Shown here piece by piece: positions 5,165 to 47,772 of a DNA stretch of 64,000 nt (the stretch's first letter is position 1; every line of letters starts with the position of its first letter). The position numbers and the translations under genes are program-made. The DNA comes from Pseudaquabacterium terrae. GTDB taxonomy: Bacteria; Pseudomonadota; Gammaproteobacteria; Burkholderiales; Burkholderiaceae_C. The stretch covers positions 124,001 through 188,000 of the forward strand of contig NZ_JABRWJ010000002.1 of NCBI RefSeq assembly GCF_013266755.1, read 5' to 3'. The notes beneath the pieces are model-generated. The model made no database searches and was not told the DNA's origin. It saw nothing but the letters and a program-made list of their open reading frames with translations.

Positions 5165-5270
5165 TCGCTTCGGCAGCCGAATTTGTATCCATGTGATAGG
5201 GAACGGGCCGGCGCGCTCAAGCTGGGGACCTTTTGCGCCGACCTCCATGCATCGGTTACCAAGGTTGGAC

Positions 5271-15683: not shown

Positions 15684-17318
15684 TCAGCGCATCGGCGTGC
15701 CGTAGCGGCCCGGCGCGATCACGTTGCCCGGATCGAGCGCGCGCTTGATCGTCGCCAGCAGCTCGCGCGCCGCCGGATTCGCATCCATCGCGTGCGGCAT
15801 GCTCATCGAGGTCGCCCGGTAGGGCGGGTAGCCGTGCTCGATGTAGGTCTCGCGCGCCTGCTGGTACCAGCTGCGCGCGCGCTCGGCGTCGGCCGCGTCG
15901 TGCCGGTCGTAGAACACGCCGACCAGCACGATCACCGAACGCGGGCTCTCGATGATGACCTCGACGAAGAAGTCGAACTCGTATTTCTCGAACACCGGCC
16001 GCGTCAGCGCCAGCGCCTTCATCACGTGCTCGGACGTGAACGGCACCACCGGGCCGATCCAGACGAAGCCGCAGCCGTCGCGCGCGGGGTCGATGTCCTG
16101 GCTCGGCTTGTTCGCATGCGACTTGAAGTACGCCTGGCGCACGAAATCGTCGGTCGGGATGCCGCGGAACAGATTGATCGCCGGGACCATCACCTCGGTG
16201 AACTCCGGCGACTTGCCCAGCAGCCGGTTGGCCAGCGGCGCGACGGTGCGCACCAGGCGCCCGTACCAGTCGTCGCGGATCGCCGCGCCGATGAACTGCA
16301 CCATGCCGTAGCGGCCGAGCACCTTGCGAATCATGCGCTTCTGGTAGCGCACCTCCTCGCGGCTGCCATAGAGCCCGCAGCCGAAGGTCCAGCGCGCGAC
16401 GCCGTGCTGCGCGCGCCATTGCGCTGCGGCCGCCTCGCTCAGGTGGCGCCGGCCGGCCAGCAGGTCGTGCGGATACTGCGACAGGATGCACATCATCGCG
16501 AAGTCGTTCGCCAGGTGCGGATGCGAGCGGATCGCGCGCGCCATCACCAGCTCGCGCAGGTCGTCGATGAAGGGTCCCAGCCGATCGGGGTCGGCCTTGT
16601 ACTCGAAGGCCGCGAAGTCGAACACCTCGGGCGCCGGCATCAGCCAGATGCCGGCCTTGACGACGATGCCCAGGTTCGACTGGCCGAACAGGCCGTCGAG
16701 CGCCGGTCCGACCGCGCCCTTGTAGGTATGGCGCACTGTGTTGTTGCCGGCTGGGCCGCCGCCGGTCTCGACGAGGCTGCCGTCCGGCAGCACGACGTCC
16801 ATGCCGCACAAACTGTTGAAGTGGTCGGCCATCGGCGTCAGGCCGCGACCCTTGTCGAGCGCGTTGCCGAGCACGCTGGCGTATTTCGTCGTGCCGGCGC
16901 AGTCGGCCCACAGGCGCGAGCCGCTCGTCTTCAGGTGGTCGTCGAGCTGCTTGTAGGTGACGCCAGGCTCGATCACCGCGTAGCCCAGCGTCTCGTCGAC
17001 GTGGCAGATGCGGTTCATGCGCTCCAGCAGCATCGTGATGCCGGCCTCGTAACACGCGCTGCGCTCGCCGTAGCCCCAGTTCTTGCCGGTGCTCAGCGGC
17101 CAGACCGGCACGCCGGCCGCGGCCGCGACCCGCACGATCGACTGCACCTGCGCCGCCGTCGTCGGGTAGACGACGACCGAAGGCAGGGCGCGGAACGGGA
17201 TGCAGGTGCGCGTCACCGCCTCGACCTGTGCCGGCTCGCTGAGCAAGCCGTCGGCGCCGACGATGTCGCGCAGTTGCGCCAGCAGCGGAGCCTCGACCGG
17301 CTGCGGCAGCGCGCTCAT
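15684..17318 (-). CDS. FAD-binding oxidoreductase of the vanillyl-alcohol oxidase / 4-cresol dehydrogenase type
   Basis: About 544 residues from the ATG complementary to 17316-17318. An in-frame ATG 12 bases upstream falls inside a dispersed repeat and is less likely. The FAD-binding part contains VVVYPTTAAQVQSIVRVA, PVWPLSTGKNWGYGE and NTVRHTYKGAVGPALDGLFGQ-type residues, diagnostic of the PCMH/VAO fold. The C-terminal half resembles the 4-cresol dehydrogenase substrate cap. Such enzymes oxidise phenols or alcohols, often with covalently bound FAD; I cannot identify the flavinylation residue. It has no obvious signal peptide. It sits between the sugar amidotransferase gene and the SDR in one minus-strand set. 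The substrate is unknown. Confidence 0.88.
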   Translation of the reverse strand: MSALPQPVEAPLLAQLRDIVGADGLLSEPAQVEAVTRTCIPFRALPSVVVYPTTAAQVQSIVRVAAAAGVPVWPLSTGKNWGYGERSACYEAGITMLLERMNRICHVDETLGYAVIEPGVTYKQLDDHLKTSGSRLWADCAGTTKYASVLGNALDKGRGLTPMADHFNSLCGMDVVLPDGSLVETGGGPAGNNTVRHTYKGAVGPALDGLFGQSNLGIVVKAGIWLMPAPEVFDFAAFEYKADPDRLGPFIDDLRELVMARAIRSHPHLANDFAMMCILSQYPHDLLAGRRHLSEAAAAQWRAQHGVARWTFGCGLYGSREEVRYQKRMIRKVLGRYGMVQFIGAAIRDDWYGRLVRTVAPLANRLLGKSPEFTEVMVPAINLFRGIPTDDFVRQAYFKSHANKPSQDIDPARDGCGFVWIGPVVPFTSEHVMKALALTRPVFEKYEFDFFVEVIIESPRSVIVLVGVFYDRHDAADAERARSWYQQARETYIEHGYPPYRATSMSMPHAMDANPAARELLATIKRALDPGNVIAPGRYGTPMR

Positions 17319-17322
17319 TGGT

Positions 17323-17392
17323 GCCCCCATGCTCGCTTCGCTCGCTGCCCCCCGAGGGGGCGCGAGCGCCTTCGGAACGGCCGGGCGGCGCT
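17323..17392 (+). repeat. Dispersed intergenic hairpin repeat, copy A
   Basis: The sequence begins GCCCCCATGCTCGCTTCGCT and contains a GCCCCC/GGGGGC hairpin. The first 45 or so bases closely match a second copy at 28874. It occupies the gap between the amidotransferase and flavoprotein genes. I recognise this kind of element as a recurrent intergenic repeat in Burkholderiales genomes. Confidence 0.6.
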
Positions 17393-20069: not shown

Positions 20070-20864
20070 ATGACTCGGCGGACTCTGCTGGCCGCGAGCC
20101 TGCTGACGCCGCTGTCGCTGCCCGTGCATGCCGACGATGCGCTGACGCTCATGCAACGTGTGCACGACCGGCCGAGCGGTCGCGACGCGACGGTGACGAG
20201 CCGGATGGAACTGATCGAGCGGGGCCGGCCCGCGCGCGTGCGCGCGCTGGTCAGCTATCGCGTCGAACGCGGGCGCGGCGAGGCCCACAACCTCGTGCGC
20301 TTTCTCGAGCCGAAGGACATCGCCGGTACCGGGCTGTTGAGCATCGACAAGGCCGACGGCAGCAACGAGCAGTGGCTGTACCTGCCGGAGCTCGACCGGG
20401 TTCGCCGCATTGCCAGTGATCGCAAGGGAGGGCGCTTCGTGGGATCTGATCTCTACTACGAGGACTTGCGCACGCGCAAGCCGGCGGCTGATCGGCATCG
20501 CCTGGTCGGTCAGGACAACGTCAACGGTGTGCAGTGCGAGATTGTCGAAAGCGTGCCGGTCGATGCCGCCGAAACGGTCTACCGCAAGCGCATGACCTGG
20601 GTCGAAGCGTCGCTGGCGATGGTGCACCGCGTCGACTATTTCGAGAAGGACGACCGCGCACCCAGCAAGCGCTGGGTGCTGGCGTCGCGCAAGCAGATCC
20701 AGGGCTACTGGACGGTGATGGAGAGCCGGCTGACCGATCTCGGCAGCGGCCACGAGACGCGACTGAGCGTCGAGCGGGCGCTCTACGATCGCAAGTTGCC
20801 GGCCAGGCTCTTCACGCAGCAGGCGCTGGCGGACGAAAACGTCGAGGCGGACTTCCGGCCATGA
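20070..20864 (+). CDS. LolA-like outer membrane lipoprotein-sorting protein
   Basis: About 264 residues from the ATG at 20070, which gives the signal peptide MTRRTLLAASLLTPLSLPVHA; ATGs at 20058 and 20007 are in frame upstream. The mature part matches the LolA-fold family often annotated as outer membrane lipoprotein-sorting protein: VRFLEPKDIAGTGLLSIDK, EQWLYLPELDRVRRI, GSDLYYEDL and a long antiparallel-sheet C-terminus. Such proteins frequently accompany RND exporters and bind hydrophobic cargo in the periplasm. Its stop overlaps the start of the outer-membrane protein gene as ATGA, and the RND exporter follows, so the three likely form one envelope lipid-transport system. The cargo is unknown. 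Confidence 0.85.
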   Translation: MTRRTLLAASLLTPLSLPVHADDALTLMQRVHDRPSGRDATVTSRMELIERGRPARVRALVSYRVERGRGEAHNLVRFLEPKDIAGTGLLSIDKADGSNEQWLYLPELDRVRRIASDRKGGRFVGSDLYYEDLRTRKPAADRHRLVGQDNVNGVQCEIVESVPVDAAETVYRKRMTWVEASLAMVHRVDYFEKDDRAPSKRWVLASRKQIQGYWTVMESRLTDLGSGHETRLSVERALYDRKLPARLFTQQALADENVEADFRP

Positions 20865-22249
20865 GCGGCGCTGCCGAGATTCGATTGAAGCCCACCCACC
20901 GGCGCACGCTGGCGCTGCCCTGGTTGCTGACGGCGCTGTACCTCGGTCCGCTGCACATCGCGGCCGCCCAGGCGCCCGCCCCCGCGGCCCAGGCGGCCGA
21001 CGAGGAGGCCGATGCGACGGCCCCGCCGCGCCGGCCGACGCGCCCGGCGCGGCCGACCTTCCGCTTCGGCGTCGATGGCGTGCTGGCCGAGGCGGCTGCG
21101 CTGCCGGATGCGCCCGATGCCAGCAGCCTGCTGACCTTGCGCGCGACGCCGTATGCGCAATGGCAGCCGGCGCGCGGCTGGGAGCTGCGCGCGGGCGTTC
21201 GCCTCGGCGCAGTCGCGCAGCGGGGCGGCCCGTCGGCCTACGACGACACGCAGGCCGAGCTGGCCGACACCTATGTGCGTTACAGCCGCGGCGACACCCG
21301 CCTGACGGTGGGCGCACAAACCGTGCTGTGGGGGCGGGTCGATGCGGTGCCGCTGATCGACCGCGTGAGCCGCGTCGACCTGAGCCGCATCGTGCTGGAT
21401 GACCTCGCCGAGCGCCGCTTGCCCCAGCCGGTCGTGCGCTGGGAGCAGACGATCGACGACTGGAAGCTCGATGGCGTGCTGCTGCCGTACTTTCGCGCCG
21501 CGGTGCTGCCCGACGAGCGCAGCGTCTGGAGTCCGATCGATCGCCGCTCCGGCCGCGTGTTGGGGCTGCCCGAAACGCCTGCCATCGCCGCCTTCGCCCG
21601 CCATGCGCCGGTGCGCGAACGCGTCGACGGCAGCGGCGGCGCCGCCGTGCGCATCACGCGCACCGGCGAGCCGCTGGACTTCGGCCTGACGCTGGCGCGC
21701 ACGCGGCAGCCCCTGCCGTACTACCGGCTCAATCCGGCCGGCCCGGCGCTCGACATCGTGCATCCGCACAACCGGTTCCTGGGCGCAGATCTCGAAGTCG
21801 TCGCCGGTGGCGTGACCTATCGCTCCGAGCTCGGCATGACCACCGACGTGCCGCTGACCCGGCCCGATGGCGTGATGGTGGATGCGCGTGCGTTCGACTG
21901 GATCGGCGCGGTGGAATTCTTCCCGGGCGGCAAGGACACGCGCGTCAACGTGCAGCTGCTGGTGCGCAAGCTGCGCGCCGACGCGCCGGTGCTCGAGATA
22001 ACGCGTTATGTCGGCATCAACGGCGAGGTGCAGACAACGCTCGGGCAGGGGCGCTGGAAGCTCGGCATGAAGTTCTTCAGCGGCCTCAACGTGCACGACC
22101 TGTACCTGGCGCCGCGGCTGTCCTTCGTCGGCTGGGAGCCGCACGAGCTGTACGTGCAGGCCCATCACTTCCGCGGCGAGTCGCGCACGCTGGGCGGCTT
22201 CTATCGCGAGCGCGGCATGCTCGCGATCGGCCTGAAGACGCGTTTTTAG
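20861..22249 (+). CDS. Predicted outer-membrane beta-barrel protein of an RND transport operon
   Basis: A 462-residue protein with a signal peptide (residues about 15-37), a Pro/Ala/Asp-rich linker, then alternating amphipathic beta-strands ending in a Phe C-terminus (GLKTRF), typical of outer-membrane barrels. Segments such as LADTYVRYSRGDTRLTVGAQ and WGRVDAVPLIDRVSRVDLS resemble DUF1302-like proteins found beside MMPL/RND exporters. It overlaps the LolA-like gene by four bases and is followed 17 bases later by the RND gene. It probably forms the outer-membrane element of the same export pathway. No specific substrate can be named. Confidence 0.75.
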   Translation: MSGAAEIRLKPTHRRTLALPWLLTALYLGPLHIAAAQAPAPAAQAADEEADATAPPRRPTRPARPTFRFGVDGVLAEAAALPDAPDASSLLTLRATPYAQWQPARGWELRAGVRLGAVAQRGGPSAYDDTQAELADTYVRYSRGDTRLTVGAQTVLWGRVDAVPLIDRVSRVDLSRIVLDDLAERRLPQPVVRWEQTIDDWKLDGVLLPYFRAAVLPDERSVWSPIDRRSGRVLGLPETPAIAAFARHAPVRERVDGSGGAAVRITRTGEPLDFGLTLARTRQPLPYYRLNPAGPALDIVHPHNRFLGADLEVVAGGVTYRSELGMTTDVPLTRPDGVMVDARAFDWIGAVEFFPGGKDTRVNVQLLVRKLRADAPVLEITRYVGINGEVQTTLGQGRWKLGMKFFSGLNVHDLYLAPRLSFVGWEPHELYVQAHHFRGESRTLGGFYRERGMLAIGLKTRF

Positions 22250-22266: not shown

Positions 22267-25107
22267 ATGTGGTTGAGCGCCTGGGCCCCGTTGTACGGGC
22301 GCCGCTACGGCATGACGACGGCGATGGTCGCGTGGCCGCTCGCGCTGGTGATCGTGATCCTGCTGCATGCGGTCGGCGGCTTCCTGGCGCTGCGGCTGAC
22401 CTTCAACAATTCGCCGCAGGTCTATTACCCGGCCGACGCGCCGGCGATCGTGCTGCGCGATGCCTTGCGCAAGGACTTCCCGAGCGACGAAGTGCTCACC
22501 GTGCTGTTCCACGGCGACGACCTGTACACCGAGGATTTCCTCAGGCGGCTGCAGGCACTGTCGAACGAGCTGCGCGATCACCCGCTCGTCGATCGCGTGA
22601 CCAGCATCCTGACGGTCGAGAAGATCGCCGGTTCGCGCGACGGTTTCAGCGTCGGGCCGCTGATCGAGCCGAAGGCGCAGAAGAAGGCCGGGCCGGAGGA
22701 TGCCAAGCGCCGCGTGCTGGCCGATCGTTTCGTGCCTGGCACGCTGGCCTCGCGGGACGGCCGCTACCTCGCGATCGGCGTGCGGCCGAAGCCGCTGGCC
22801 GACAGCGGGCAGCGGCTGCAGGTGAAGATCGCCACCGTGCTGGCGATCAACCGCGCCGGCCTGCGTGGGCACTACGCCGGCGACGCCGGTCCGGTGACGA
22901 TGGATGTCGCGCAGCTCGAGTCGATCCTGCGGGACACGGCGACCTTCGTGCCGCTGACCGTGGGCATCGGCCTGGCGCTGCTGTGGTGGGTGGTCGGGCG
23001 CATCCGGCCGGTCGTGATCGGCGCGGTGGCGATGTCGACCGTGGTTCTGCCGGTGGTCGGTGCGATCGCGGCGTTCAACCAGCCGTACACGATGGCCACC
23101 GCGATCATCCCGACGCTGCTGTCGGCGTACACGCTGGCGACGCTGATGCATCTGTACGCCGGCATCCAGCGCGCGCAGGAGGCCGGGCTGCGCCGCGCCG
23201 AGCGGCTCGACCGCGCGATGCAGGAGACGCTGAAACCCGGCATCTTCAATGTGCTGACGACCGGATCCGGCCTGTTGAGCCTGGTGCTGGTGCCGGTGCC
23301 GCCGGTGCAGGTCTTCGGCGTCGCCGGCGCCGCTGGCACGGCGCTCGTCTTCATCGTCGTCTATGGGCTGATGCCGCCGCTGCTGCTGCGCTGGGACAAG
23401 CACCGCTGGCCGACGCGCCGCACGTCGGGCATGGGACTGCTCGGCCGCTTCGCCACGCGCATCACGATCTTCAGCATGCGCAACGCGAAGACGATCATCA
23501 TCGCGGCGCTGGTCGTGCTGGTCGCCGGCATCCCGGCCGTCCGGGCGGTGAAGGTCGAGTCCGACCTGCTGACCTTCTTCCCGCCCAGCCATCCGGCGGT
23601 GCGCCACACGCAGCTGGCGGAGAGCAAGCTGATGGGCGTGACCTCGCTGGAGTTCTCGCTGCGCGGCCAGGAGCGCGACAGCCTGCAGAACGTCGAGCGC
23701 CTGCGCGGCATCCGCGCGTTCCAGCGCTGGCTCGAAGAGCAGCCGGAGGTCGATCGCACCATCTCGATGGTCGACCTGATCGAGGAGATGCACTGGGCGA
23801 TGAACGCCGAGCAGGCCGCGTTCCGCACGCTGCCGCCGACCGACCGCCTGCTGCGCCAGTACCTGCTGGTCTACGACGGCACCGACCTGTACGAGCTGGT
23901 GAATCGCGATTTCCAGCATGCGCGCATCCTCGCCAACCTGCACATCCACGGCGCACACGAGATCGGCGAGGTGCTCGCGCGCATCCGCAAGCGCCTGGAG
24001 CAGCAGCCGATCGAAGGGCTCGCGGTCGACATCGGCGGCCAGGGACGCCTGTTCGCCGACCAGATCAACCTGCTCGTCAGCGGCCAGACCGGCAGCTTCA
24101 TCGGCGCCTTCGTGCAGATCTTCCTGTTCATGGCGCTGCTGTGGCGCTCGTTCAAGGCCGCCGCGGTGTGCATGGTGCCGAACATCGCACCGCTGTATTT
24201 CGTCTTCGTGCTGATGGGCGCGATCGGCATCTACCTGAACATGGCCACCGTGATGATCGCCAGCATCGTGCTCGGCATCACGGTCGACGACACGATCCAC
24301 CTGTACCACGGCTACAAGGAGCGGCTGCAGCAAGGCATCTCGCCGGTGCTGGCGATCGCGCGCAGCTTCGAGTCCTCGGGCCGCGCGGTGCTGGCGATCT
24401 CGGTGCTGCTGATCACGCAGTTCACGCTGCTGTTCGGCTCGGACTTCATCCCGACCTCGGACTTCGGGATCATGACGGCGCTCGGCCTGTTCTCCGGACA
24501 GTGCTTCGAGCTGCTGCTGTTGCCGCCGCTGCTGCTGCTGACCGATGCGCGCCGGCGCGCCGCCCCGGCGGCGCCGCACGCGCCCTCCGAGGTGCTGGAT
24601 GCCGGCGATACGCTGCTCGCGCCGCGCTCGACGCAGATGCCGGTCGGCGGCGATACGCTGATGCCGGTCGACGGCGATGCGCCGATGCCGCTCGGCGGCG
24701 ACACGCTGATGCCGCCCGCGCTGCCCGCGCTGGTCGCGGCACCGGCACCGCCGGCCACCGCCCCGCCGGCGCCCGAGCGCGTGCTGGTGTGCACCGGCGA
24801 CATCTGCACGATCGCCGACGGGGAGCTGCTGTGGGAACGCTTCACGCGATTGCAGGCCGCCAGAGCGGCGGAGGCACCGGAAGAAGACTGGCGTCTGACG
24901 CGCACCAGCTGCCTCGGGCTGTGCCGGCTAGCGCCGGTGGTGCAGCTCTACCCGGCCGGCACGTACCACGGCAAGCTCACGCCGCACGCGGTGAGCCAGC
25001 TGGTCGAGCAGCGGCTTTTGCAACGCGCCCACCCAGCCGCCATCGGCGAGGAGTCGACCGCCGCGAGGCCCGCCACCGGCGACCCACCGGGCCGCGCATC
25101 GACGTGA
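22267..25107 (+). CDS. RND/MMPL family exporter fused to a C-terminal thioredoxin-like [2Fe-2S] domain
   Basis: A 946-residue protein. The first 770 or so residues form an MMPL-type RND exporter with two halves, each a large periplasmic loop plus a helix bundle; the halves begin near residues 20 and 405. An Ala/Pro-rich linker holds three copies of an eight-residue repeat (MPVGGDTL type, encoded 24637-24708). The last 110 residues look like a thioredoxin-like ferredoxin: LVCTGDIC (Cys842, Cys847), then SCLGLC (Cys882, Cys886), AP and LTPHAVSQLV, matching the four-Cys pattern of NuoE-like [2Fe-2S] domains. The exporter part predicts lipid or hydrophobic-molecule transport with the LolA-like and barrel proteins. 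The ferredoxin-like tail on such an exporter is unusual. Confidence 0.9.
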   Translation: MWLSAWAPLYGRRYGMTTAMVAWPLALVIVILLHAVGGFLALRLTFNNSPQVYYPADAPAIVLRDALRKDFPSDEVLTVLFHGDDLYTEDFLRRLQALSNELRDHPLVDRVTSILTVEKIAGSRDGFSVGPLIEPKAQKKAGPEDAKRRVLADRFVPGTLASRDGRYLAIGVRPKPLADSGQRLQVKIATVLAINRAGLRGHYAGDAGPVTMDVAQLESILRDTATFVPLTVGIGLALLWWVVGRIRPVVIGAVAMSTVVLPVVGAIAAFNQPYTMATAIIPTLLSAYTLATLMHLYAGIQRAQEAGLRRAERLDRAMQETLKPGIFNVLTTGSGLLSLVLVPVPPVQVFGVAGAAGTALVFIVVYGLMPPLLLRWDKHRWPTRRTSGMGLLGRFATRITIFSMRNAKTIIIAALVVLVAGIPAVRAVKVESDLLTFFPPSHPAVRHTQLAESKLMGVTSLEFSLRGQERDSLQNVERLRGIRAFQRWLEEQPEVDRTISMVDLIEEMHWAMNAEQAAFRTLPPTDRLLRQYLLVYDGTDLYELVNRDFQHARILANLHIHGAHEIGEVLARIRKRLEQQPIEGLAVDIGGQGRLFADQINLLVSGQTGSFIGAFVQIFLFMALLWRSFKAAAVCMVPNIAPLYFVFVLMGAIGIYLNMATVMIASIVLGITVDDTIHLYHGYKERLQQGISPVLAIARSFESSGRAVLAISVLLITQFTLLFGSDFIPTSDFGIMTALGLFSGQCFELLLLPPLLLLTDARRRAAPAAPHAPSEVLDAGDTLLAPRSTQMPVGGDTLMPVDGDAPMPLGGDTLMPPALPALVAAPAPPATAPPAPERVLVCTGDICTIADGELLWERFTRLQAARAAEAPEEDWRLTRTSCLGLCRLAPVVQLYPAGTYHGKLTPHAVSQLVEQRLLQRAHPAAIGEESTAARPATGDPPGRAST
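24637..24708 (+). repeat. Three tandem 24-bp repeats in the RND linker
   Basis: Each unit encodes an eight-residue motif of the form MP(V/L)(G/D)GD(T/A)(L/P), and a partial fourth unit follows. It lies exactly between the exporter and the [2Fe-2S] domain, so copy number could vary linker length. Confidence 0.8.
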
Positions 25108-25267
25108 GGCGGGCAATTGTTCACGCCGCACCTCCCGATCGGGCACGGGGGGCGCGGAATGGCGTCCCGGTTCGGGGGATATTGAAAGGCTGGACAGAAT
25201 GCCGGTGGTGACAAGATGCAACGCCGCCATCGCGGGCTGCGACCGCAACATGAATGAAGGACAAGCC

Positions 25268-28039
25268 TTGAAACACGCCCCACGAGCCCGCACGGCCGCC
25301 CTGTTGATCGCCGTGGCGCTGGTGGCCGCTTGCGGCAAGCCCGGGCCGGAGGCGCAGATCGCCTCGGCGCGCGCGGATCTGCAGCGCCGCGATCCACAAG
25401 CGGCCATCGTGCGCTTGAAGACCGTGCTGCAAGACCAGCCCGAATCGGGTCCGGCGCGGCTGCTGCTGGGCCGTGCGTTGTTCGAGCAGGGCGATCCGGC
25501 ATCGGCCGCCGCCGAGTTGCAGAAGGCCCTGGATCTGAAGCACCCGCCATCCGAGGTGCTGCCGACGCTGGCGCGCGCGATGCTGCAGCAGGGGCTGGCG
25601 CGCAAGCTGATCGAACAGCATGGTGCGACCACGCTGCCCGATACCGAGGCGAACGCCGAGTTGCGCACCACCATCGCAGCGGCGCACTACTCCCTGGGCG
25701 CCCGCGCGGCCGGTGACCGCGAGCTCGACGCCGCCTTGGCAGCCTCGCCGCAATCCGCGCCGGCGCGCAATCTGCGCACCCGCGTGATGGCGATAGGCGG
25801 CCAGATTCCGGCCGCGATCGCGCTGAATGACGAGGTGCTGAAGGCCCTTCCGCAGGATCCGGAGGCTTGGCAGCTGCGCGGCATGCTGTTGCTGGCGTCG
25901 AAGAAGGACAGCGCCGGCGCGCTGGCGGCCTATCGCAAGTCGTTGTCGTTCCATCCGCGGCAGCCAGGTGTGCATGAAGGGGTCGTCGCGCTGCTGATGC
26001 GCGACAAGCAGCTCGATGCGGCCGAGGCGCAGGTGGCGGAAATGCGCAAGGTGCTGCCCACGCACCCGCTGACCTATCTGCTGGCCGGTCAGGTCGCGCT
26101 GGCGAAGAAAGACTATCCGAAGGCCAAGGATCTCGCGCAGCGCCTGATGAAGAACCTGCGCGAAGACCCCGCGGTGCTGCTTTTTGCATCCGAGGTCGAG
26201 TTTCGCGCAGGCTCGTTGCGACAGGCCGAGACGCACCTCGGCAAGCTGCTCGGCAAGGCCCCGGACAACGCGGGGGCGCGCCAGTTGTTCGCGCAGGTGC
26301 AGCTGCGGCTGGGGCAGGCGCCGCTGGCCCTCGAGACGCTGCGGCCGTTGCTGGAGCAACCGGCGGTGCCCGCGCAAACGCTCGTCGCGGCCGCGACGGC
26401 CCACCTGCAGCTGGGCGACAACGCCGCGGCCGAGGCGTTCTACGTGCGCGCGTCCAAGGCCGATCCGGATGACGTGCGCAGCCGGATCGCACTGGCACTG
26501 AGCCAGATCGGCCGTGGCCAGACCTCCGGTTTTGCCGAGCTGGATCGTTTGTCGGAAGCAGACACCGGCGGCATCGACGCCGATCTGGCGGCGGTCGCCG
26601 CCCATGCCCGCCGCAAGGAATTCGATGCCGCCCTGAAGGCGGTCGACCGGATCGAGAAAAAGCAACCGGGCAAGGCTCTGAGCGCGCACCTGCAGGGGCG
26701 CATGCTGCGGATGACGGGCGACCGCGCCGGCGCACGCCGCAGCTTCGAACGTGCGCTGCAGATCGACTCCCAGTACGTCATCGCCGCGGCCGACCTGGCC
26801 GAGCTCGACGTCGCAGAGCAGCAGCCGCAGAAGGCGCGGGCGCGGCTGGAGGCGATATTGACCGCCAATCCGCGCAACGAGGCGGCGCGGCTTGCACTGA
26901 TCGATCTCTACGCACGCAGCGACAGCGACACCGAGGCGATGCTGAAGCTGATCAACGAGGCGCTGGCCGCCAATCCAATGTTGAGCCGGCCGCGCCTGCT
27001 GCTGGTGCACCACTACCTGCGCACGAACAAGGTCGCGCTGGCAATGGCGGCGGCGCAGGACGGCATCGCGGCCAAGCCCGGATCGCCGGAGTTGCTCGAT
27101 GCGCTCGCGCAGGCGCAAAGCCGCATGGGCGATACCCAGCAGGCGATCGTGACCTACAACAAGCTCGCTGCGCTGCAGCCGAAATCGGCCTTCCCGCACC
27201 TGCGTCTGGCGGCCATCCATGCGCGCAACAAGAACCAGGCGGGGGCGCTGCAGAGTCTGAACAAGGCCCTGGCCATCGCGCCCGAGCTGCTGCTGGCGCA
27301 GCGCGCGCTGGTGTCGCAGCACCTCGGCGAGAACAAGCATGCCGATGCGCTGGCCGTCGCGCGGCTGGTCCGGCAGCAGCGGCCGAAGGAGCCGGCCGGT
27401 TACGTGCTCGAAGGGGACATCGAAGCCGACCGCCGCGCCTGGTCGGCGGCCATCGTTGCCTACCGGGCCGGTCTGAAGAATGCGCCGTCGACCGAGCTGG
27501 CGGTGCGCCTGCACGGCATGCTGATCCGGAACGGCAAGCCCGACGAGGCCCAGTCGTTTGCCAGTGCGTGGCGCGCGGAGCATCCGAAGGATGCGCTGTT
27601 CGTGCTCGGGCTCGGCGAGCAGGCCCTCGCGGGCCGCAAGCTGCCGGAAGCCGAAAAGTACTTCCGCGAGGCGCTGCAGCGCTTGCCGGACAGCCCGATG
27701 GCGCTGAACAACCTGGCCTTCGTGCTGGCGATGCGCGGTGAGCCGGAGTCGATCGCGCTGGCCGAGCGGGCGATCAAGCTCAAGCCCAACGAGGCCACGC
27801 TGTACGACACGCTCTCGCTGGCGCAGGCGAGCAACAAGCAGCTGGAGCGCGCGATCGAGACCCAGAAGAAGGCCATCGACCTGACATCCGATCAGGACCT
27901 CATGCGGCTGCGGCTGGCCAAGTTGTATCTCCAGGCCGATCGGAAGGCCCTGGCCAAGGAACAGCTGCAGCAGCTCGAGGCCAGAAGCGCGATTCCGCAG
28001 GTCAAGACCGAAGCGAAAGAGTTGCTCAAGACCCTGTGA
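25268..28039 (+). CDS. prsT: XrtA/PEP-CTERM system TPR-repeat lipoprotein PrsT
   Basis: About 923 residues. A TTG start at 25268 is preferred because AAGGA lies seven bases upstream and it gives a short lipoprotein signal with the lipobox VAAC (Cys22); the in-frame ATG at 25250 has no ribosome site. The rest is a long array of tetratricopeptide repeats, with units such as ARLLLGRALFEQGDPASAAAE and YFREALQRLPDSPMALNNLA. Length and architecture match PrsT, always found with exosortase A loci and thought to act in the periplasm with export or sorting. It begins the forward gene run that continues with the export lipoprotein after a 200-base gap. Confidence 0.93.
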   Translation: MKHAPRARTAALLIAVALVAACGKPGPEAQIASARADLQRRDPQAAIVRLKTVLQDQPESGPARLLLGRALFEQGDPASAAAELQKALDLKHPPSEVLPTLARAMLQQGLARKLIEQHGATTLPDTEANAELRTTIAAAHYSLGARAAGDRELDAALAASPQSAPARNLRTRVMAIGGQIPAAIALNDEVLKALPQDPEAWQLRGMLLLASKKDSAGALAAYRKSLSFHPRQPGVHEGVVALLMRDKQLDAAEAQVAEMRKVLPTHPLTYLLAGQVALAKKDYPKAKDLAQRLMKNLREDPAVLLFASEVEFRAGSLRQAETHLGKLLGKAPDNAGARQLFAQVQLRLGQAPLALETLRPLLEQPAVPAQTLVAAATAHLQLGDNAAAEAFYVRASKADPDDVRSRIALALSQIGRGQTSGFAELDRLSEADTGGIDADLAAVAAHARRKEFDAALKAVDRIEKKQPGKALSAHLQGRMLRMTGDRAGARRSFERALQIDSQYVIAAADLAELDVAEQQPQKARARLEAILTANPRNEAARLALIDLYARSDSDTEAMLKLINEALAANPMLSRPRLLLVHHYLRTNKVALAMAAAQDGIAAKPGSPELLDALAQAQSRMGDTQQAIVTYNKLAALQPKSAFPHLRLAAIHARNKNQAGALQSLNKALAIAPELLLAQRALVSQHLGENKHADALAVARLVRQQRPKEPAGYVLEGDIEADRRAWSAAIVAYRAGLKNAPSTELAVRLHGMLIRNGKPDEAQSFASAWRAEHPKDALFVLGLGEQALAGRKLPEAEKYFREALQRLPDSPMALNNLAFVLAMRGEPESIALAERAIKLKPNEATLYDTLSLAQASNKQLERAIETQKKAIDLTSDQDLMRLRLAKLYLQADRKALAKEQLQQLEARSAIPQVKTEAKELLKTL

Positions 28040-28239
28040 TGCTCGCGCGGCCGCGGGCTGCGTGAAGTTTTGCATCGCAGCACGCGGCGCCGTCGGCGCC
28101 AGCCGCGATTCCGTAAAACTGCCTGTGTCATGATGCGCAACCGTGCATTTGGCGTGCATCCGGTGTGCATGGCGCGTGCGCGCCAGCGCCATTGCCGCCG
28201 GCTGTCGCGCACAAAGTTCGCTGCATGAGAGGAAGCAAG
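28040..28239. promoter_or_regulatory. Upstream region of the polysaccharide export operon
   Basis: A 200-base gap after prsT. A structured segment (28066-28120) has outer arms AGTTTT/AAAACT around a GGCGCC-GTC-GGCGCC hairpin at 28086-28100. Three GTGCAT direct repeats follow at exact 11-base intervals. No good sigma-54 or sigma-70 match was found. Confidence 0.45.
28143..28175 (+). promoter_or_regulatory. Three 11-bp direct repeats (GTGCATnnGG type), candidate regulator site
   Basis: GTGCAT occurs at 28143, 28154 and 28165, each one helical turn apart and the first two followed by nnGG. This head-to-tail spacing is typical of response-regulator binding sites. It lies about 65-100 bases before the start of the export lipoprotein gene. 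Confidence 0.5.
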
Positions 28240-28872
28240 TTGAACGCCATTTCCAAATTGATCGAGTCCAGCATGGCCTGGCGGCTCGGCGCAGCATTGC
28301 TGGTCGTGCTGCTCGGCGCCTGCGCGTCACGCCAGCATCCGCCGGCGCCGGCGCAGGCCGATACGCAGAACTACAACTACATCATCGGCCCCGGTGACTC
28401 GCTGCAGATCACCGTCTGGCGCAATCCCGACCTGTCGATGACGGTGCCGGTGCGTCCCGACGGCAAGATCGCGACGCCGCTGATCGACGAACTCGTCGCG
28501 CAGGGCAAGACCTCGACCGAGATGGCGCGCGACATCGAGAAGCAGCTGTCGAAGTACGTGCGTGATCCGGTCGTCACGGTGATCGTCACCGCCTTCGTCG
28601 GCCCCTACAGCGAGCAGATCCGCGTTGTCGGCGAAGCGGCCAAGCCGCAGTTCCTGCCCTACAAGCAGAAGATGACGCTGCTCGACGTGATGATCGCCGT
28701 CGGCGGCCTGACCGATTTCGCCGATGGCAACGGCGCGACGATCCTGCGCGGCTCCGAAGGCAACAAGCAGTATTCGGTGCGCCTGAAGGACCTGATCAAG
28801 CGCGGCGACGTGTCGGCGAACGTCGAGATGAAGCCGGGCGACATCCTCATCATCCCGCAGGGCCTTTTCTGA
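28240..28872 (+). CDS. XrtA-type polysaccharide export lipoprotein (Wza-like)
   Basis: About 210 residues from a TTG at 28240 with AGAGGA ideally placed six bases upstream; an ATG at 28225 is in frame but has no ribosome site. A lipobox LGAC follows (Cys28 from the TTG). The Poly_export domain is clear: YIIGPGDSLQITVWRNPDLS, VRPDGKIATPLIDELVAQGKT, then an SLBB-like part IRVVGEAAKPQFLPYKQKMT and a final MKPGDILIIPQGLF. It corresponds to the PEP-CTERM/exosortase export protein family (TIGR03027 type), shorter than E. coli Wza. It should form the outer-membrane or periplasmic exit channel for the polysaccharide. Confidence 0.94.
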   Translation: MNAISKLIESSMAWRLGAALLVVLLGACASRQHPPAPAQADTQNYNYIIGPGDSLQITVWRNPDLSMTVPVRPDGKIATPLIDELVAQGKTSTEMARDIEKQLSKYVRDPVVTVIVTAFVGPYSEQIRVVGEAAKPQFLPYKQKMTLLDVMIAVGGLTDFADGNGATILRGSEGNKQYSVRLKDLIKRGDVSANVEMKPGDILIIPQGLF

Positions 28873-28873
28873 T

Positions 28874-28945
28874 GCCCCCACGCTCCCTCCGGTCGCTGCC
28901 CCCCAAGGGGTCCCTTGCAGCGGACCGGCAGAGCCGGATCCGCGC
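28874..28945 (+). repeat. Dispersed intergenic hairpin repeat, copy B
   Basis: Begins GCCCCCACGCTCCCTCCGGT and continues TCGCTGCCCCCCAAGGGG, closely matching copy A at 17323 over about 45 bases. It fills most of the gap between the export lipoprotein and chain-length genes, reading with transcription, and could form an attenuating hairpin. Confidence 0.6.
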
Positions 28946-28977
28946 AAGAGCTTGGCTGTAACCCCGACAGAAGTGCC

Positions 28978-30555
28978 ATGGAAGACCTGATCAACCAGCT
29001 CACGACCATCGTCCGCCGGATGTGGAAATTCCGCTGGCCGGCACTGCTTGCGGCGTGGTTCGTCGCCATCGCCGGCGCCGTCGTCGTCTTCTACGTGCCC
29101 GACAAGTACGAGGCCACGGCGCGCATCTTCGTCGACACGCAATCGATCCTGAAGCCGCTGATGTCGGGCCTGACGGTGCAGCCCAACGTCGAGCAGCAGG
29201 TCGGCATGCTCAGCCGCACGCTGATCAGCCGGCCGAACGTCGAGAAGCTGATCCGCATGGCGGACCTCGACCTGAAGAACGAGTCGAAGGCGCAGCAGGA
29301 GGCGCTGATCGAGAGCCTGACGAAGTCGCTCGAGATCCGCGGCACGAACCGCGACAACCTCTATTCGCTCAGCTACCGCGATGCCGACAAGGAAAAGGCC
29401 AAGCGGGTGATCCAGTCGCTGGTGTCGATCTTCGTCGAGTCGAGCCTCGGTGCCAGCCGCAAGGACACCGACTCGGCCAAGGTCTTCCTCAACGAGCAGA
29501 TCAAGACCTATGAGGCCAAGCTCGAGGAGGCCGAGACGCGGTTGAAGGAGTTCCGGCTGCGCAATCTCGACCTGCAGACCGCCGACGGCCGCGACTCGGC
29601 GTCGCGCCTGGGCGAGATCAGCAAGCAGCTCGAACAAGCGCGGCTCGAGTTGCGCGAGGCCGAGAATGCCCGCGAAGCGGCGAAGCAGCAGCTGGCCGCC
29701 GAAAAGCAGTCGAACACCAGCGTCACGCAGAGCCTGTTGCAGGAGTCGTCGGTCAGCGTGTCGACGCCCGAGCTCGATGGCCGCATCGCCGAACACAAGC
29801 GCAACCTCGACGCGCTGCTGCAGCGCTACACCGAGCAGCATCCCGACATCATCAGCACGCGCCGCCTGCTGAAGGACCTGGAAGAGCAGAAGAAAAAGGA
29901 AATCGCCGAGCAGCGCAAGCTGGCGCTGAGCCAGCCCGCGGCGGCCGCGCCGCAGTCCGGCCTTGCGTTCCAGGAGCTGAACCGGTTGCTGGCGACCTCC
30001 GAAGTGCAGGTCGCGTCGCTGCGCGCACGCGTGGCCGAGTATTCGTCGCGTTATGCGCAGGCTCGGGCGGCGCTGAAGACCTCGCCGCAGATCGAGGCCG
30101 AGGCGGCCCAGCTGAACCGCGACTACGCGATCATCAAGAAGAACTACGAAGACCTGGTCGCGCGCCGGCAGGCGGCGGTGATGTCCGGCGACCTCGATGT
30201 CGCGTCCGGCGTCGCCGACTTCCGGCTGATCGATCCGCCGCGCGTCTCGTCGCGCCCGGTGTCGCCGAACCGCTTCCTGCTCTATCCGCTGGCGCTGGCC
30301 GCGGCGCTCGGCGTCGGACTGTTCGTCGCCTTCGCGGCGAGCCAATTGCGCCCGGTCTACGACGCGGCCTACGAGCTGCGCGCGAAAACCGGGTTGCCGG
30401 TGCTCGGTGTCGTCTCGCTGGTGCTCAGCGATGGGGACACCCGCAGGGCACGGGTCGACTTGCTGCGCTTCCTGGCCGGATCGGGCAGCTTGGTCGGTGT
30501 GTACGTGATCGGGCTGATCGCGCTGACGGTCATCGTCAGCAGGCAGGTGGGTTGA
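28978..30555 (+). CDS. XrtA-type polysaccharide chain-length determinant (Wzz-like)
   Basis: A 525-residue polysaccharide co-polymerase. It has an N-terminal membrane helix (residues about 22-42), a Wzz domain with YEATARIFVDTQSILKPLMSG, a long coiled-coil region (about 165-310, with EEAETRLKEFRLRNLDLQTA-type heptads), a GNVR-like segment before the second helix, and a membrane helix near 435-455 preceded by the proline-rich RPVSPNRFLLYPLALA. A further hydrophobic segment ends the protein. This matches the PEP-CTERM chain-length family (TIGR03007 type). It works with the tyrosine kinase encoded three bases downstream to control polymer length. Confidence 0.94.
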   Translation: MEDLINQLTTIVRRMWKFRWPALLAAWFVAIAGAVVVFYVPDKYEATARIFVDTQSILKPLMSGLTVQPNVEQQVGMLSRTLISRPNVEKLIRMADLDLKNESKAQQEALIESLTKSLEIRGTNRDNLYSLSYRDADKEKAKRVIQSLVSIFVESSLGASRKDTDSAKVFLNEQIKTYEAKLEEAETRLKEFRLRNLDLQTADGRDSASRLGEISKQLEQARLELREAENAREAAKQQLAAEKQSNTSVTQSLLQESSVSVSTPELDGRIAEHKRNLDALLQRYTEQHPDIISTRRLLKDLEEQKKKEIAEQRKLALSQPAAAAPQSGLAFQELNRLLATSEVQVASLRARVAEYSSRYAQARAALKTSPQIEAEAAQLNRDYAIIKKNYEDLVARRQAAVMSGDLDVASGVADFRLIDPPRVSSRPVSPNRFLLYPLALAAALGVGLFVAFAASQLRPVYDAAYELRAKTGLPVLGVVSLVLSDGDTRRARVDLLRFLAGSGSLVGVYVIGLIALTVIVSRQVG

Positions 30556-30558
30556 ACG

Positions 30559-31539
30559 ATGAGCAGCTTGATCGAACAGGCCGCGCGCCGACTGGCGCAG
30601 ATTCGCGAATCGGGGATCGAGATTCCCGGCGAGACCGCGCCCGCCGACACGACGGTGCCGACCACCACGCCCGGCGACATCGCGCCGCCGCGTTATGCCG
30701 CGACGCCGGCGGCGCCGCCGCTGGCCGCGCCGCTGGTCCCCGTGCCGCCGGCGATGGTGCCGCGGCTGGCCGACGAACCCACGGTCACCTCGCGTCGCGT
30801 CGAGCTCGATCTCGATCTGCTCGCCGCGAGCGGCATCGTGACGCCGAACGCGCCGCGCTCGAACGTCGCCGACCAGTACCGGGTCATCAAGCGTCCGCTG
30901 ATCCTCAATGCGATCGGCAAGGGCGCGGTGCCGCTGAACCACGGCAACCTGATCATGGTGACCAGCGCCTTGTCCGGCGAGGGCAAGAGCTTCACGTCGA
31001 TCAACCTGGCGATGAGCATTGCCGCCGAGCTCGACCACACGGTGATGCTCGTCGACGCCGACGTCGCGCGGCCCTCGGTGCTGCGCATGCTCGGCTTGCC
31101 GCCGGGCCCCGGCCTGCTCGACCTGCTCGAGGGCCACGCCGACATGTCGAACGTGCTGCTGCGCACCAACATCGACAAGCTGACGCTGTTGCCCAGCGGC
31201 TCGCCGCACCCGCGGGCGACCGAGCTGCTGGCCAGCGATTCGATGCGCCAGCTGCTCGACGACATCGCGACGCGCTACCACGACCGCATCGTGATCTTCG
31301 ATTCGCCGCCGCTGCTGCTGACCACCGAGTCGCGCGTGCTGGCCTCGCACATGGGCCAGATCGTCGTCGTCGTGCACGCCGGCCGGACGCTGCAGGCGGA
31401 CGTTCAGCATGCGCTGTCGACGATCGAGTCGTGCCCGGTGCGTCTGATGCTGCTCAACAAGGCGCAAAGCAACGCCCACGGAGCCTACGGCTACTCGTAT
31501 GGCTACGGTTACGGCGAACAAGAACAGATGCCGGGTTGA
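30559..31539 (+). CDS. XrtA-associated tyrosine autokinase
   Basis: A 326-residue BY-kinase of the cytoplasmic CpsD/EpsG type. The first 110 residues are Pro/Ala-rich. The kinase core has Walker A SALSGEGKSFTS, Walker A' VMLVDADVARPSVL and a Walker B-like IVIFDSPPLLLT. The C-terminus is a tyrosine cluster (GAYGYSYGYGYGEQ), the usual autophosphorylation tail. It follows the chain-length gene by three bases and corresponds to the TIGR03018-type kinase of exosortase A loci. It likely regulates polymerisation and export through cycles of phosphorylation. Confidence 0.95.
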   Translation: MSSLIEQAARRLAQIRESGIEIPGETAPADTTVPTTTPGDIAPPRYAATPAAPPLAAPLVPVPPAMVPRLADEPTVTSRRVELDLDLLAASGIVTPNAPRSNVADQYRVIKRPLILNAIGKGAVPLNHGNLIMVTSALSGEGKSFTSINLAMSIAAELDHTVMLVDADVARPSVLRMLGLPPGPGLLDLLEGHADMSNVLLRTNIDKLTLLPSGSPHPRATELLASDSMRQLLDDIATRYHDRIVIFDSPPLLLTTESRVLASHMGQIVVVVHAGRTLQADVQHALSTIESCPVRLMLLNKAQSNAHGAYGYSYGYGYGEQEQMPG

Positions 31540-31558
31540 GCCGGCGCCTTCAACCACA

Positions 31559-33121
31559 ATGATGCGTCCAGGGTCTGGAGAACGCGATCGTGCCTGCCTG
31601 CCGAGTCGGCCCCTGTGGCCGCTGGCCTTGCTGCTGGCCGCCGCAGGCGGCCAGGCACAGGAAGCGGCGCAACTGCAGCAGTCGCAGCGCGGACGCCCGC
31701 TGACGGTCCAGCCCAGCGCATCGATCACCGAGACGCTGACCGACAACGCGCTGCTGCGCGACAGCGACAAGCGCACCGAGGCGATCACGCAGCTGACCGC
31801 CGGCGTCGCCGCGACGCTGCGCGCCGACCGTGTCAGCGGCGTACTCGACTACCAGCTGACCGGCACCGTGCACGCGCGCGAGACCAAGGCCGACAAGGTC
31901 GGACAGTCGCTGCGAAGCACGCTGAGCGCCGTGCTGATCGATGAGCTGTTCTATCTCGACGGCAGCGCGTCCATCGGGCGCCAGGCGATCTCCGCTTTCG
32001 GCACCCAGGATGTCGGCCGGCCGCTGGACAACGAGAACAGCACCGAGGTGCGCAGCCTGTCGTTGACGCCGTCGCTGCGCGGCCGCATCGGCGACAACGC
32101 GGTCTTCGACGCGCGCGTCAATTTCACCAAGCAATCCAGCGAAGGCAGCAACCGCGGCGACCTGACGACGCGGACCGATACGCTGTCGGTCGGCGCGCGC
32201 CCGGGCGTGCGCCTGGGCTGGAACGCCAGCGTCACCCGCGGCAGCTACAAGTACAAGGACGGGTCGAACACCCATGACAGCCGCGCACTCGTCGGCCTGA
32301 CCTACCAGCCCGATCCGAGCTGGCGCTTCTCGGCCAACGCCGGGCGCGAAGAGAACGACATCACGACGCTCGGCACGAGGAACAACACCACCTGGGGCGT
32401 GGGCCTGCAGTGGGTGCCGAGTCCGCGCACGCAGCTGGCGGCGACGCGCGATCATCGCTTCTTCGGCGAAGCGCACAGCATCAGCTTCACGCATCGCGAG
32501 CCGCGCACGACGTGGCGATTCACCAGCTCGCGCGATCTTCAGAGCGCGCAGCCGAACCAGGTCAGCACGCTGCTGCACGACGTGTACCAGCTGCTGTTCG
32601 ACATGCTTGCCAGCAGGGTGCCCGATCCGGTGGCGCGCCGGGATGCGGTGTTGCGAGTGATGGAGCAAGAGGGCATTCCCGCTTCCGCGGTGGTCACCTC
32701 GGCGTTCCTGAACTCGGCGGTCACCCTGGTCAGCCGGCAGGAGCTTGCCTTCGGCTACCAGGGCATCCGCAGCAGCGCGCTGTTGACGATGTACCGCAGC
32801 GACACCCGCCGTGTCGACGGCAGGTCCAGCGCGATCGACGACCTGTCGACCGACCCGGCGGTGCGCCAGCACGGCGCCTTGCTGACGCTCAGCCACCGGC
32901 TGACGCCGGCCAGCGGCATCAGCCTGACGCTGACCTGGCAGCGCAACCGCGGTGCTTCGCAGGCGCGCAACAACGAGTTGTCCTCGGCGTCGCTGAACTG
33001 GACCACCCGCCTGGGCCCGCACAGCAACCTCGCGCTCGGCGCGCGCCATGTCGAGTTCGACACCGCGCTGAACCCCTACAACGAGAATGCCGTGTTCGCC
33101 ACGCTCGGCGTTCGGTTCTAA
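31559..33121 (+). CDS. XrtA system-associated outer-membrane beta-barrel protein (TIGR03016 type)
   Basis: A protein of about 520 residues starting at ATG 31559 or the adjacent ATG 31562. After a signal peptide (LWPLALLLAAAGGQAQ) comes LTVQPSASITETLTDNALL, a hallmark of the PEP-CTERM-associated outer-membrane family. The remainder is regular amphipathic beta-strand, ending VFATLGVRF with terminal Phe. It sits between the kinase and the AAA ATPase, its usual neighbours. A role as a polysaccharide porin is plausible. Confidence 0.9.
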   Translation: MMRPGSGERDRACLPSRPLWPLALLLAAAGGQAQEAAQLQQSQRGRPLTVQPSASITETLTDNALLRDSDKRTEAITQLTAGVAATLRADRVSGVLDYQLTGTVHARETKADKVGQSLRSTLSAVLIDELFYLDGSASIGRQAISAFGTQDVGRPLDNENSTEVRSLSLTPSLRGRIGDNAVFDARVNFTKQSSEGSNRGDLTTRTDTLSVGARPGVRLGWNASVTRGSYKYKDGSNTHDSRALVGLTYQPDPSWRFSANAGREENDITTLGTRNNTTWGVGLQWVPSPRTQLAATRDHRFFGEAHSISFTHREPRTTWRFTSSRDLQSAQPNQVSTLLHDVYQLLFDMLASRVPDPVARRDAVLRVMEQEGIPASAVVTSAFLNSAVTLVSRQELAFGYQGIRSSALLTMYRSDTRRVDGRSSAIDDLSTDPAVRQHGALLTLSHRLTPASGISLTLTWQRNRGASQARNNELSSASLNWTTRLGPHSNLALGARHVEFDTALNPYNENAVFATLGVRF

Positions 33122-33137
33122 CGCAGGACGCCCCGCC

Positions 33138-34241
33138 ATGTACGAAGCGTTCTACGGGCTCGCCAACAAGCCCTTCCAGCTCAACCCGGATCCGAGCTTC
33201 TATTTCGGCAGCAAGCAGCATCGGCGCGCCAAGGCTTACCTCGACTACGGCGTCTCGCGCAACGAAGGCTTCATCGTCATCACCGGCGAGATCGGCGCCG
33301 GCAAGACCACGCTGCTGCGCGCGCTGATCGACGGCCTGCACGGCAGCAACGTCATCGTCGGTCACCTCGTGACCACGCAGCTCGGCGCCGAGGACACGCT
33401 GCGCATGGTCGGCGCGGCGTTCGGCTTCCGCGTCAAGGACGTGCCGAAGTCGGAGCTGTTGATCACGCTCGAAGCCTTCCTGATCAGCCAGACCAGCAAG
33501 GGCAAGCGCTGCCTGCTGATCGTCGACGAGGCGCAGAACCTGACGCCGCGCGCGGTCGAGGAGCTGCGCATGCTGTCGAACTTCCAGTTCGGCAACCAGG
33601 CGCTGATGCAGAGCTTCCTGGTCGGCCAGCCCGAGTTTCGCGAGATCCTGCAGCGGCCCGAGATGGAGCAGTTCCGCCAGCGCGTGGCGGCCACCTGCCA
33701 CATCGGCCCGCTCGATGCCGAGGAGACGCAGCACTACATCGAGCACCGGCTCAAGTGCGCCGGCTCGACCGGCCAGCCGAGCTTCGAGCCCGACGCCTTC
33801 ACCGCGATCCACCTGGCCAGCAACGGCATCCCGCGCCGCATCAACTCGGTCTGCGACCGGCTGCTGCTGCTGGGCTTCCTGGCCGGCAAGGCGCACCTGG
33901 CGAAAGCCGACGTCGACGAGGTGATGCGCGACATCGCGCAGGAGTCCGCACTGCCGGCGGCGCCCGCGGTGCCGGCGGTGCGCGCTCCCGGCCAGCCCGG
34001 CGCCTCCAGCGAAGTGATGGAGCTCGACGTCGACTTGTCGCAGCTCAAGCTCGACCCCGAAGCCGCCAGCGCGATGACGCGCCAGCTCGCCAGCCTGACC
34101 GCCGAGCAGCGCGGCGACCAGCTGCAGCGCCTGGAGCGCGGCATGCTGCGCCTCGAACGCACGAACCTGCAGATCCTGTCGATGCTGCAGCAACTGGTCG
34201 CTGCACTGGCCAAGCCCGGCAGCGACCCCAAGAAATCATGA
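33138..34241 (+). CDS. XrtA system-associated AAA ATPase (ExeA-like)
   Basis: A 367-residue ATPase beginning MYEAFYGLANKPFQLNPDPSF-like, the conserved start of this family (TIGR03015 type). Walker A is ITGEIGAGKTTLLRAL and Walker B CLLIVDEAQNL; RRINSVCDRLLLLGFLAGK marks the C-terminal AAA lid. The final 80 residues form an Ala/Glu-rich helical tail. ExeA-like ATPases energise assembly of envelope complexes. Its stop overlaps the wecB start as ATGA. Confidence 0.94.
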   Translation: MYEAFYGLANKPFQLNPDPSFYFGSKQHRRAKAYLDYGVSRNEGFIVITGEIGAGKTTLLRALIDGLHGSNVIVGHLVTTQLGAEDTLRMVGAAFGFRVKDVPKSELLITLEAFLISQTSKGKRCLLIVDEAQNLTPRAVEELRMLSNFQFGNQALMQSFLVGQPEFREILQRPEMEQFRQRVAATCHIGPLDAEETQHYIEHRLKCAGSTGQPSFEPDAFTAIHLASNGIPRRINSVCDRLLLLGFLAGKAHLAKADVDEVMRDIAQESALPAAPAVPAVRAPGQPGASSEVMELDVDLSQLKLDPEAASAMTRQLASLTAEQRGDQLQRLERGMLRLERTNLQILSMLQQLVAALAKPGSDPKKS

Positions 34242-35401: not shown

Positions 35402-35445
35402 CCCGTCGCGTCGAGGCCGGACACTGCGGCCGAGCTATCCCTGAT

Positions 35446-36327: not shown

Positions 36328-36338
36328 GCGCGCCGGCC

Positions 36339-47595: not shown

Positions 47596-47772
47596 GGGGC
47601 GAAGGGGCGGCGCGCCCGGCAACAGGAGCGCCGATTGTGGCCGCCCATGCGAGAGCGTCGTCCGTGAAAAATGGACGGCCGCCGGCCCGCCGGACGCCCG
47701 GCCGCGGGGGCAATCCTGACATGGTCGAGATGGATAATCGCCGGCTTCCTCACGTTCGAGCGCCGAACCCCC
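47596..47772. promoter_or_regulatory. Divergent promoter region, MaoC-SDR / FkbH-like
   Basis: A 177-base region between divergent starts. CTGACA and TAATCG near 47717-47741 loosely resemble -35 and -10 elements but the spacing is short (about 13). No stronger site was found. Confidence 0.3.

Follow-up and report, generated by a model that had tools for sequence, protein, structure and literature searches.

What does an RND/MMPL exporter do with a thioredoxin-like [2Fe-2S] domain at its C terminus, and what might such a protein export? The question arises from one open reading frame (ORF) in a 64,000-nucleotide stretch of the Pseudaquabacterium terrae genome (hereafter the window). An initial annotation of this DNA had read the ORF as a fusion of the two domains and had placed it, together with LolA-like and barrel proteins, in a candidate redox-linked lipid export system. 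The features of the window are as follows.

5193-6635, + strand: FeeM-type N-acyl amino acid synthase (PF21926, E 2.6e-42), ~13 kb upstream of the trio
9249-12718, + strand: PrsK histidine kinase and PrsR response regulator (TIGR02916 and TIGR02915, above cut-off), upstream of the trio
15684-17330, - strand: FAD_binding_4 protein, near an acyl-CoA ligase-like gene; 81% identical in L038
20070-20864, + strand: LolA-like periplasmic carrier (PF17131, E 2.6e-52)
20861-22249, + strand: DUF1302 outer-membrane barrel (PF06980, E 1.7e-12), with a 4-base overlap with the LolA-like stop codon
22267-25107, + strand: MMPL/RND–[2Fe-2S] fusion ORF, 946 aa in one continuous frame
22267-24564, + strand: MMPL/RND exporter core (PF03176), ~residues 1-766, HAE3-like with a lipid-type fold
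24565-24774, + strand: Ala/Pro linker with imperfect GGDTLMP repeats, ~residues 767-836, disordered and fast-evolving
24775-25026, + strand: thioredoxin-like [2Fe-2S] domain, ~residues 837-920, with Cys 842, 847, 882 and 886
25199-28039, + strand: PrsT TPR lipoprotein of the XrtA/PEP-CTERM system (TIGR02917, 647.5 bits; cut-off 312.2)
28165-38932, + strand: XrtA exopolysaccharide (EPS) locus of seven genes, NCBIfam above cut-off
40334-41815, EPS region: DltB-like acyltransferase, under its model's cut-off
47671-49668, EPS region: FkbH-domain protein

The fusion is borne out by Pfam, with both domains above cut-off in a single frame. The core scored 76 bits against MMPL PF03176 (E 3.4e-21; cut-off 20.5), and the C-terminal domain (hereafter the tail) scored 36.3 bits against 2Fe-2S_thioredx PF01257 over residues 833-915 (E 6.3e-9; cut-off 24.8). 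Searched alone, the tail matched PF01257 with E 1.7e-10. GC3 ranged from 0.86 to 0.98 over the 11 blocks of the ORF, linker and tail included, and thus provides no evidence that a frameshift has merged two genes. The annotation had allowed for a local error that fused two separate genes or for poorly conserved Cys residues; no split genes were found in the loci examined, and the Cys are conserved. A sequencing or assembly artefact is ruled out, to a negligible residual chance, by the uniform GC3 and by the same fusion in independently sequenced genomes, including those of the named isolates Rubrivivax albus and Azohydromonas sediminis.

The exporter core was predicted with confidence by AlphaFold2 (AF2), and the predicted model has an RND fold (Foldseek E 4.8e-28 to an MmpL, TMt 0.78), in agreement with the earlier description as a lipid-type exporter. 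The best Foldseek matches over the core were MmpL4/5, followed by MmpL3, HpnN and NPC1-type proteins. The likeness to the lipid-type transporters MmpL3/4/5 and HpnN is nevertheless limited to 12-17% identity, over the core only, and the NCBIfam subfamily cut-offs were missed: 125.9 bits against 351.9 for HAE3 (TIGR00921), 51.7 against 751.85 and 12.1 against 1100 for the HpnN models, and a score below cut-off for MMPL (actII). We therefore name the exporter HAE3-like, not HAE3. Residues D674, D675, H678 and H295 were invariant in all 20 rows of the core alignment, tailed or untailed.

Between core and tail lies the repeat-containing linker that the annotation had described. Its GGDTLMP-like repeats are imperfect in the window ORF and are kept in none of five aligned relatives, in which linker length also varies. 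AF2 gave pLDDT <50 over residues 766-851. In the full-length model the tail itself was predicted at low confidence, so that no contact between tail and core is supported.

The tail carries Cys 842, 847, 882 and 886 at the positions claimed, in a C-x4-C ... C-x3-C spacing that was reproduced by 34 of 100,000 shuffles of the tail. A sequence search of the PDB placed the tail beside [2Fe-2S] ferredoxin 1f37 and the [2Fe-2S] domains of hydrogenase and complex I 24 kDa subunits, and the predicted fold is that of solved [2Fe-2S] ferredoxins. Cys spacing and fold thus agree with the label 'NuoE-like'; the N-terminal part of NuoE, in contrast, is absent, the PF01257 match beginning at profile position 61-62 of 145. 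Likewise, the model for NuoE (complex I 24 kDa subunit) was matched over profile positions 67-146 of 148 only, with 29.6 bits against a cut-off of 142.4. The known relatives compared are the thioredoxin-like [2Fe-2S] ferredoxins (Aquifex 1m2a/1f37, Azotobacter FeSI 5abr) and the C-terminal part of NuoE, from which the present domain differs in being tethered to a membrane exporter. The tail domain most likely binds a [2Fe-2S] cluster, although it may instead bind Zn or be an apo domain.

We next consider how widely the tail occurs. Among 33 non-duplicate homologues scoring >=500 bits over the core, seven have it (the window, L038, L040, L042, L043, L044 and L045), and the other 26 stop within 20 residues of the core end. 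Six loci (L009, L046, L047, L048, L050 and L062) had been dropped as duplicates with identical ORF lengths and scores; the L038 ORF is the same as the L009 ORF of genome G018. All tailed homologues belong to one Burkholderiales group. Besides the window they come from the window genus (L038), R. albus, a Rubrivivax MAG, two Methylibium MAGs and A. sediminis. The four Cys are invariant in all seven, and 11 columns in total are. Identity to the window tail is 58% for L038 and 21-32% for the others, the lowest being that of L040, which is poorly conserved outside the Cys. For the window and L038, dN/dS was 0.28 in the core, 0.95 in the linker and 0.36 in the [2Fe-2S] domain; for L042 and L044 the values were 0.08, 0.38 (20 codons) and 0.16. 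Note that these values come from a simple counting method, of which we use only the ranking of regions. By this ranking of sequence change the linker evolves nearly freely and the [2Fe-2S] domain is under selection.

Sampled genomes show how often the core itself occurs. In the family sample it was found in 7 of 399 genomes (E 1e-100), in the order sample in 13 of 399, in the class sample in 16 of 369 and in the phylum sample in 2 of 200 (E 1e-60; the window and G157). The samples overlap, and each includes the window's genome. In the window genus, 5 of 21 genomes have this RND protein, two with the tail and three without. A tree of 30 rows, from which the fragments L042, L059 and L060 and homologues <500 bits (L061, L073-L077, L013-L015 and weaker ones) were left out, placed the six tailed rows inside a nine-row clade (99/97) with Thiobacillus as sister. 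The clade also includes the untailed window-genus rows L010-L012, which grouped with the tailed L044 (93/94, below the tool's mark for strong support). A single clade of tailed rows without loss was disfavoured (p-AU 0.019), in a test that is weak because the group was named after the tree had been seen. Together with the position of L010-L012, this suggests one gain and one loss of the tail, or two gains. Being absent from L010-L012, the tail is dispensable in them.

Relatives of the tail are common as separate proteins. A profile of the seven tails matched in at least 297 of 349 genomes of the order at E 1e-8, and many of the matched loci that were read encode stand-alone ferredoxins of ~105-125 aa. 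Over 24 tailed and stand-alone rows, only the four Cys and one Pro are invariant. Since the stand-alone rows were found with a Cys-containing profile, a fair test of Cys conservation is limited to the seven tailed rows, which the whole exporter retrieved. Two profiles (E up to 0.1) found no stand-alone [2Fe-2S] ORF in 508,686 bases of sequence from 30 larger trio loci or in the rest of the window, indicating that in these regions the tail has not taken the place of an adjacent gene.

In the window the RND gene is the third of an operon in the order LolA-like, DUF1302 barrel, RND, followed by PrsT. Pfam confirms the two upstream proteins noted earlier, and the three-gene neighbourhood is conserved: in a survey of 31 loci with larger flanks the trio was complete in 29, the two that miss a part (L127 and L134) lying at contig ends. 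The genes run LolA-like, barrel, RND on one strand in 28 of the 29 complete loci (the exception is L131, with its RND gene on the opposite strand), and in several (e.g. L128-L130, L132 and L133) a gap of 0.5-1.2 kb separates the LolA-like and barrel genes. The trio is thus far more widespread than the tail, and with three of the five window-genus carriers untailed, the idea of the whole trio as a redox-linked system is not supported in the form proposed. The tail is an add-on that a single group acquired and is not what drives the system.

Two distant relatives are instructive about the parts. In L014 (646-4035) an RND protein and a LolA-like protein share one 1129-aa frame, and the frame end of L017 is similar. 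The L014 fusion ties LolA to the pump and supports a hand-over from pump to carrier. In L074 (1477-4221) the RND protein carries a C-terminal cyclic-nucleotide-binding domain (cNMP_binding, PF00027), a further tail of the sensor type. Tails similar in length to that of L074 were seen in L073, L075 and L077.

A comparable cassette is AmeABCD of Castellaniella defragrans, which, as described in PMC6394551, combines an HAE3 RND protein with DUF1302, LolA/DUF1329 and COG4447 proteins, and the deletion of which lowers monoterpene tolerance. The likeness lies in the HAE3 RND protein, the DUF1302 outer-membrane protein and the LolA-superfamily periplasmic protein in one cassette; in the window, too, a DUF1302 barrel gene and a LolA-like gene stand beside the RND gene. 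By the same account AmeD has 787 aa, about the size of the window core, which would leave no room for a [2Fe-2S] tail. The setting also differs, AmeABCD lying in a monoterpene island and the window trio in an XrtA/EPS locus. No gene for COG4447 (AmeC) is present in the window trio, which is flanked by a PEP-CTERM protein and PrsT.

The XrtA/PEP-CTERM exopolysaccharide locus is recognizable in the window, where XrtA, PrsK, PrsR, PrsT and EPS genes occur together. The seven genes encode an export protein, a chain-length determinant, a tyrosine kinase, a TIGR03016 protein, an ATPase, a deacetylase and exosortase A. XrtA/EPS markers were found in 20 of the 31 trio loci, or 21 with L043, which has a TIGR03013 XrtA-system glycosyltransferase; none were seen in 10, several of them short contigs. 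Six of the 20 assignments (L089, L123, L124, L125, L127 and L136) are weak because PrsT, a TPR protein matched at 24-34% identity, was the sole marker. In L082 (G003), six EPS genes neighbouring the trio share 73-95% identity with their window counterparts, whereas the trio, which is untailed, is 57-62% identical and the PrsT match 38%. As the EPS genes are so much closer to the window's than the trio is, the trio seems to have been swapped as a single block.

A FeeM-type synthase occurs in only 7 of the 31 loci (the window, L087, L089, L123, L124, L125 and L127), of which the first three supplied the queries, and in the window the gene lies ~13 kb from the trio; this counts against the reading favoured below. 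PMC4897644, citing Craig et al. 2011, links a subset of the N-acyl amino acid synthases to PEP-CTERM/exosortase systems. The window synthase, in a PEP-CTERM/exosortase locus, resembles these; the association with the LolA/DUF1302/RND trio is added by the present analysis, and Craig et al. 2011 may have noted it already. A ThiF-like (E1-like) gene lies near the trio in 19 of the 31 loci (L082-L084, L086, L088, L089, L123-L125, L127-L134, L136 and L137), or 18 of 30 excluding the query source L086. Its presence, in some loci with FeeM or a methyltransferase, suggests a possible pathway to some product. No ThiF match was found within the window, and two weaker ones (40% over 112 residues; 27%) lie elsewhere in its genome. 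The FAD_binding_4 protein was considered as a redox partner and rejected: among the 31 loci only the window and L038 have it.

Taken together, we tentatively favour a reading in which the HAE3-like pump exports an amphiphile in the XrtA/PEP-CTERM locus and a cytoplasmic [2Fe-2S] tail modulates the pump, by gating or docking, and does not power it. The RND protein would serve as the inner-membrane pump in an envelope system of three parts that exports lipid and is encoded within the exopolysaccharide locus, using the proton gradient to take the amphiphile out of the inner membrane. The LolA-like carrier would then ferry it across the periplasm, and the DUF1302 barrel would take it over at the outer membrane, for deposition there or at the surface. 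The locus and the N-acyl amino acid synthase, neither of which the annotation mentions, indicate a likely substrate, the best candidate being an N-acyl amino acid lipid made by the FeeM-type synthases of some loci. In one Burkholderiales group the pump acquired its C-terminal, probably cytoplasmic domain on a flexible tether, and this domain would modulate the pump either through gating by redox or iron-sulphur status or through docking of a cytoplasmic partner. The cyclic-nucleotide tail of L074 provides the analogy: it would be a cytoplasmic ligand-binding tail elsewhere in the family, and by comparison modulation of the pump is the most likely role of the [2Fe-2S] tail.

The pump may thus be tied to cellular redox or iron state. 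The most specific version, a redox- or iron-sulphur-gated lipid exporter that would be the first RND pump set by a [2Fe-2S] cluster on its own tail and an export route for exosortase-linked N-acyl amino acids, we regard as rather doubtful. If it is true, surface lipid deposition with the XrtA polysaccharide would track cellular redox or iron status.

The main rival to modulation is that the tail is a docking module, keeping the pump beside a cytoplasmic lipid-making or acyl-carrier partner, with a purely structural cluster. A flexible tether suits recruitment, the tail surface varies while the Cys do not, and among the top structural matches is MmpL5 in complex with AcpM, a cytoplasmic partner that meets such a pump. 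Yet no partner gene was seen to accompany the tail: FeeM or ThiF is present in three of six tailed loci surveyed, and the FAD_binding_4 gene in just two of them, the window and L038. On balance we consider such docking possible, if on the unlikely side.

Alternatively, electron transfer via the cluster could chemically alter the substrate or help to drive export. Although the tail has the fold of real electron carriers, and the FAD_binding_4 gene is shared at high identity with L038, the four remaining tailed loci in the survey yielded no match to this gene. Moreover, untailed close relatives (L082) that keep the trio are found in the same type of locus, making redox-driven export unlikely, and untailed pumps keep the same invariant residues D674, D675, H678 and H295, which counts against a driving role. 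It is therefore unlikely that the [2Fe-2S] domain powers transport, and we give electron transfer as a whole little credence.

The tail might also be an evolutionary passenger, a fused small ferredoxin with no transport role, as small stand-alone relatives are common in the order and the tail was lost from, or never reached, L010-L012; but four invariant Cys and dN/dS well <1 after deep divergence make this an improbable account.

Each of the domains is known already; the combination is new. Among the papers listed by searches of the open-licence full-text literature, and judged by title and abstract start, there was neither an iron-sulphur-regulated RND pump or RND/MmpL–[2Fe-2S] fusion nor a description of the LolA/DUF1302/RND trio in XrtA loci. 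If the tail gates the pump, as the modulation reading allows, the fusion would offer a compact handle on the coupling of envelope export to cell physiology. The recurrence of the trio in XrtA/PEP-CTERM loci, some with FeeM or ThiF, yields a testable proposal for the exit of exosortase-linked lipids.

Several further searches concerned the window and its surroundings. A consensus scan for sigma-54 sites gave 10 matches in the window, compared with 13.2 expected, and the 800 bases preceding the LolA-like start held none. A PADLOC search gave no match. The DltB-like and FkbH-domain genes of the EPS region suggest possible acylation of the polysaccharide. Among 32 tail-profile loci with short flanks, no MMPL-like ORF indicative of another RND/[2Fe-2S] fusion was found. 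Elsewhere in the order, in L092 and L095, [2Fe-2S]-profile matches lie inside longer ORFs, which may resemble CbiX-type chelatases.
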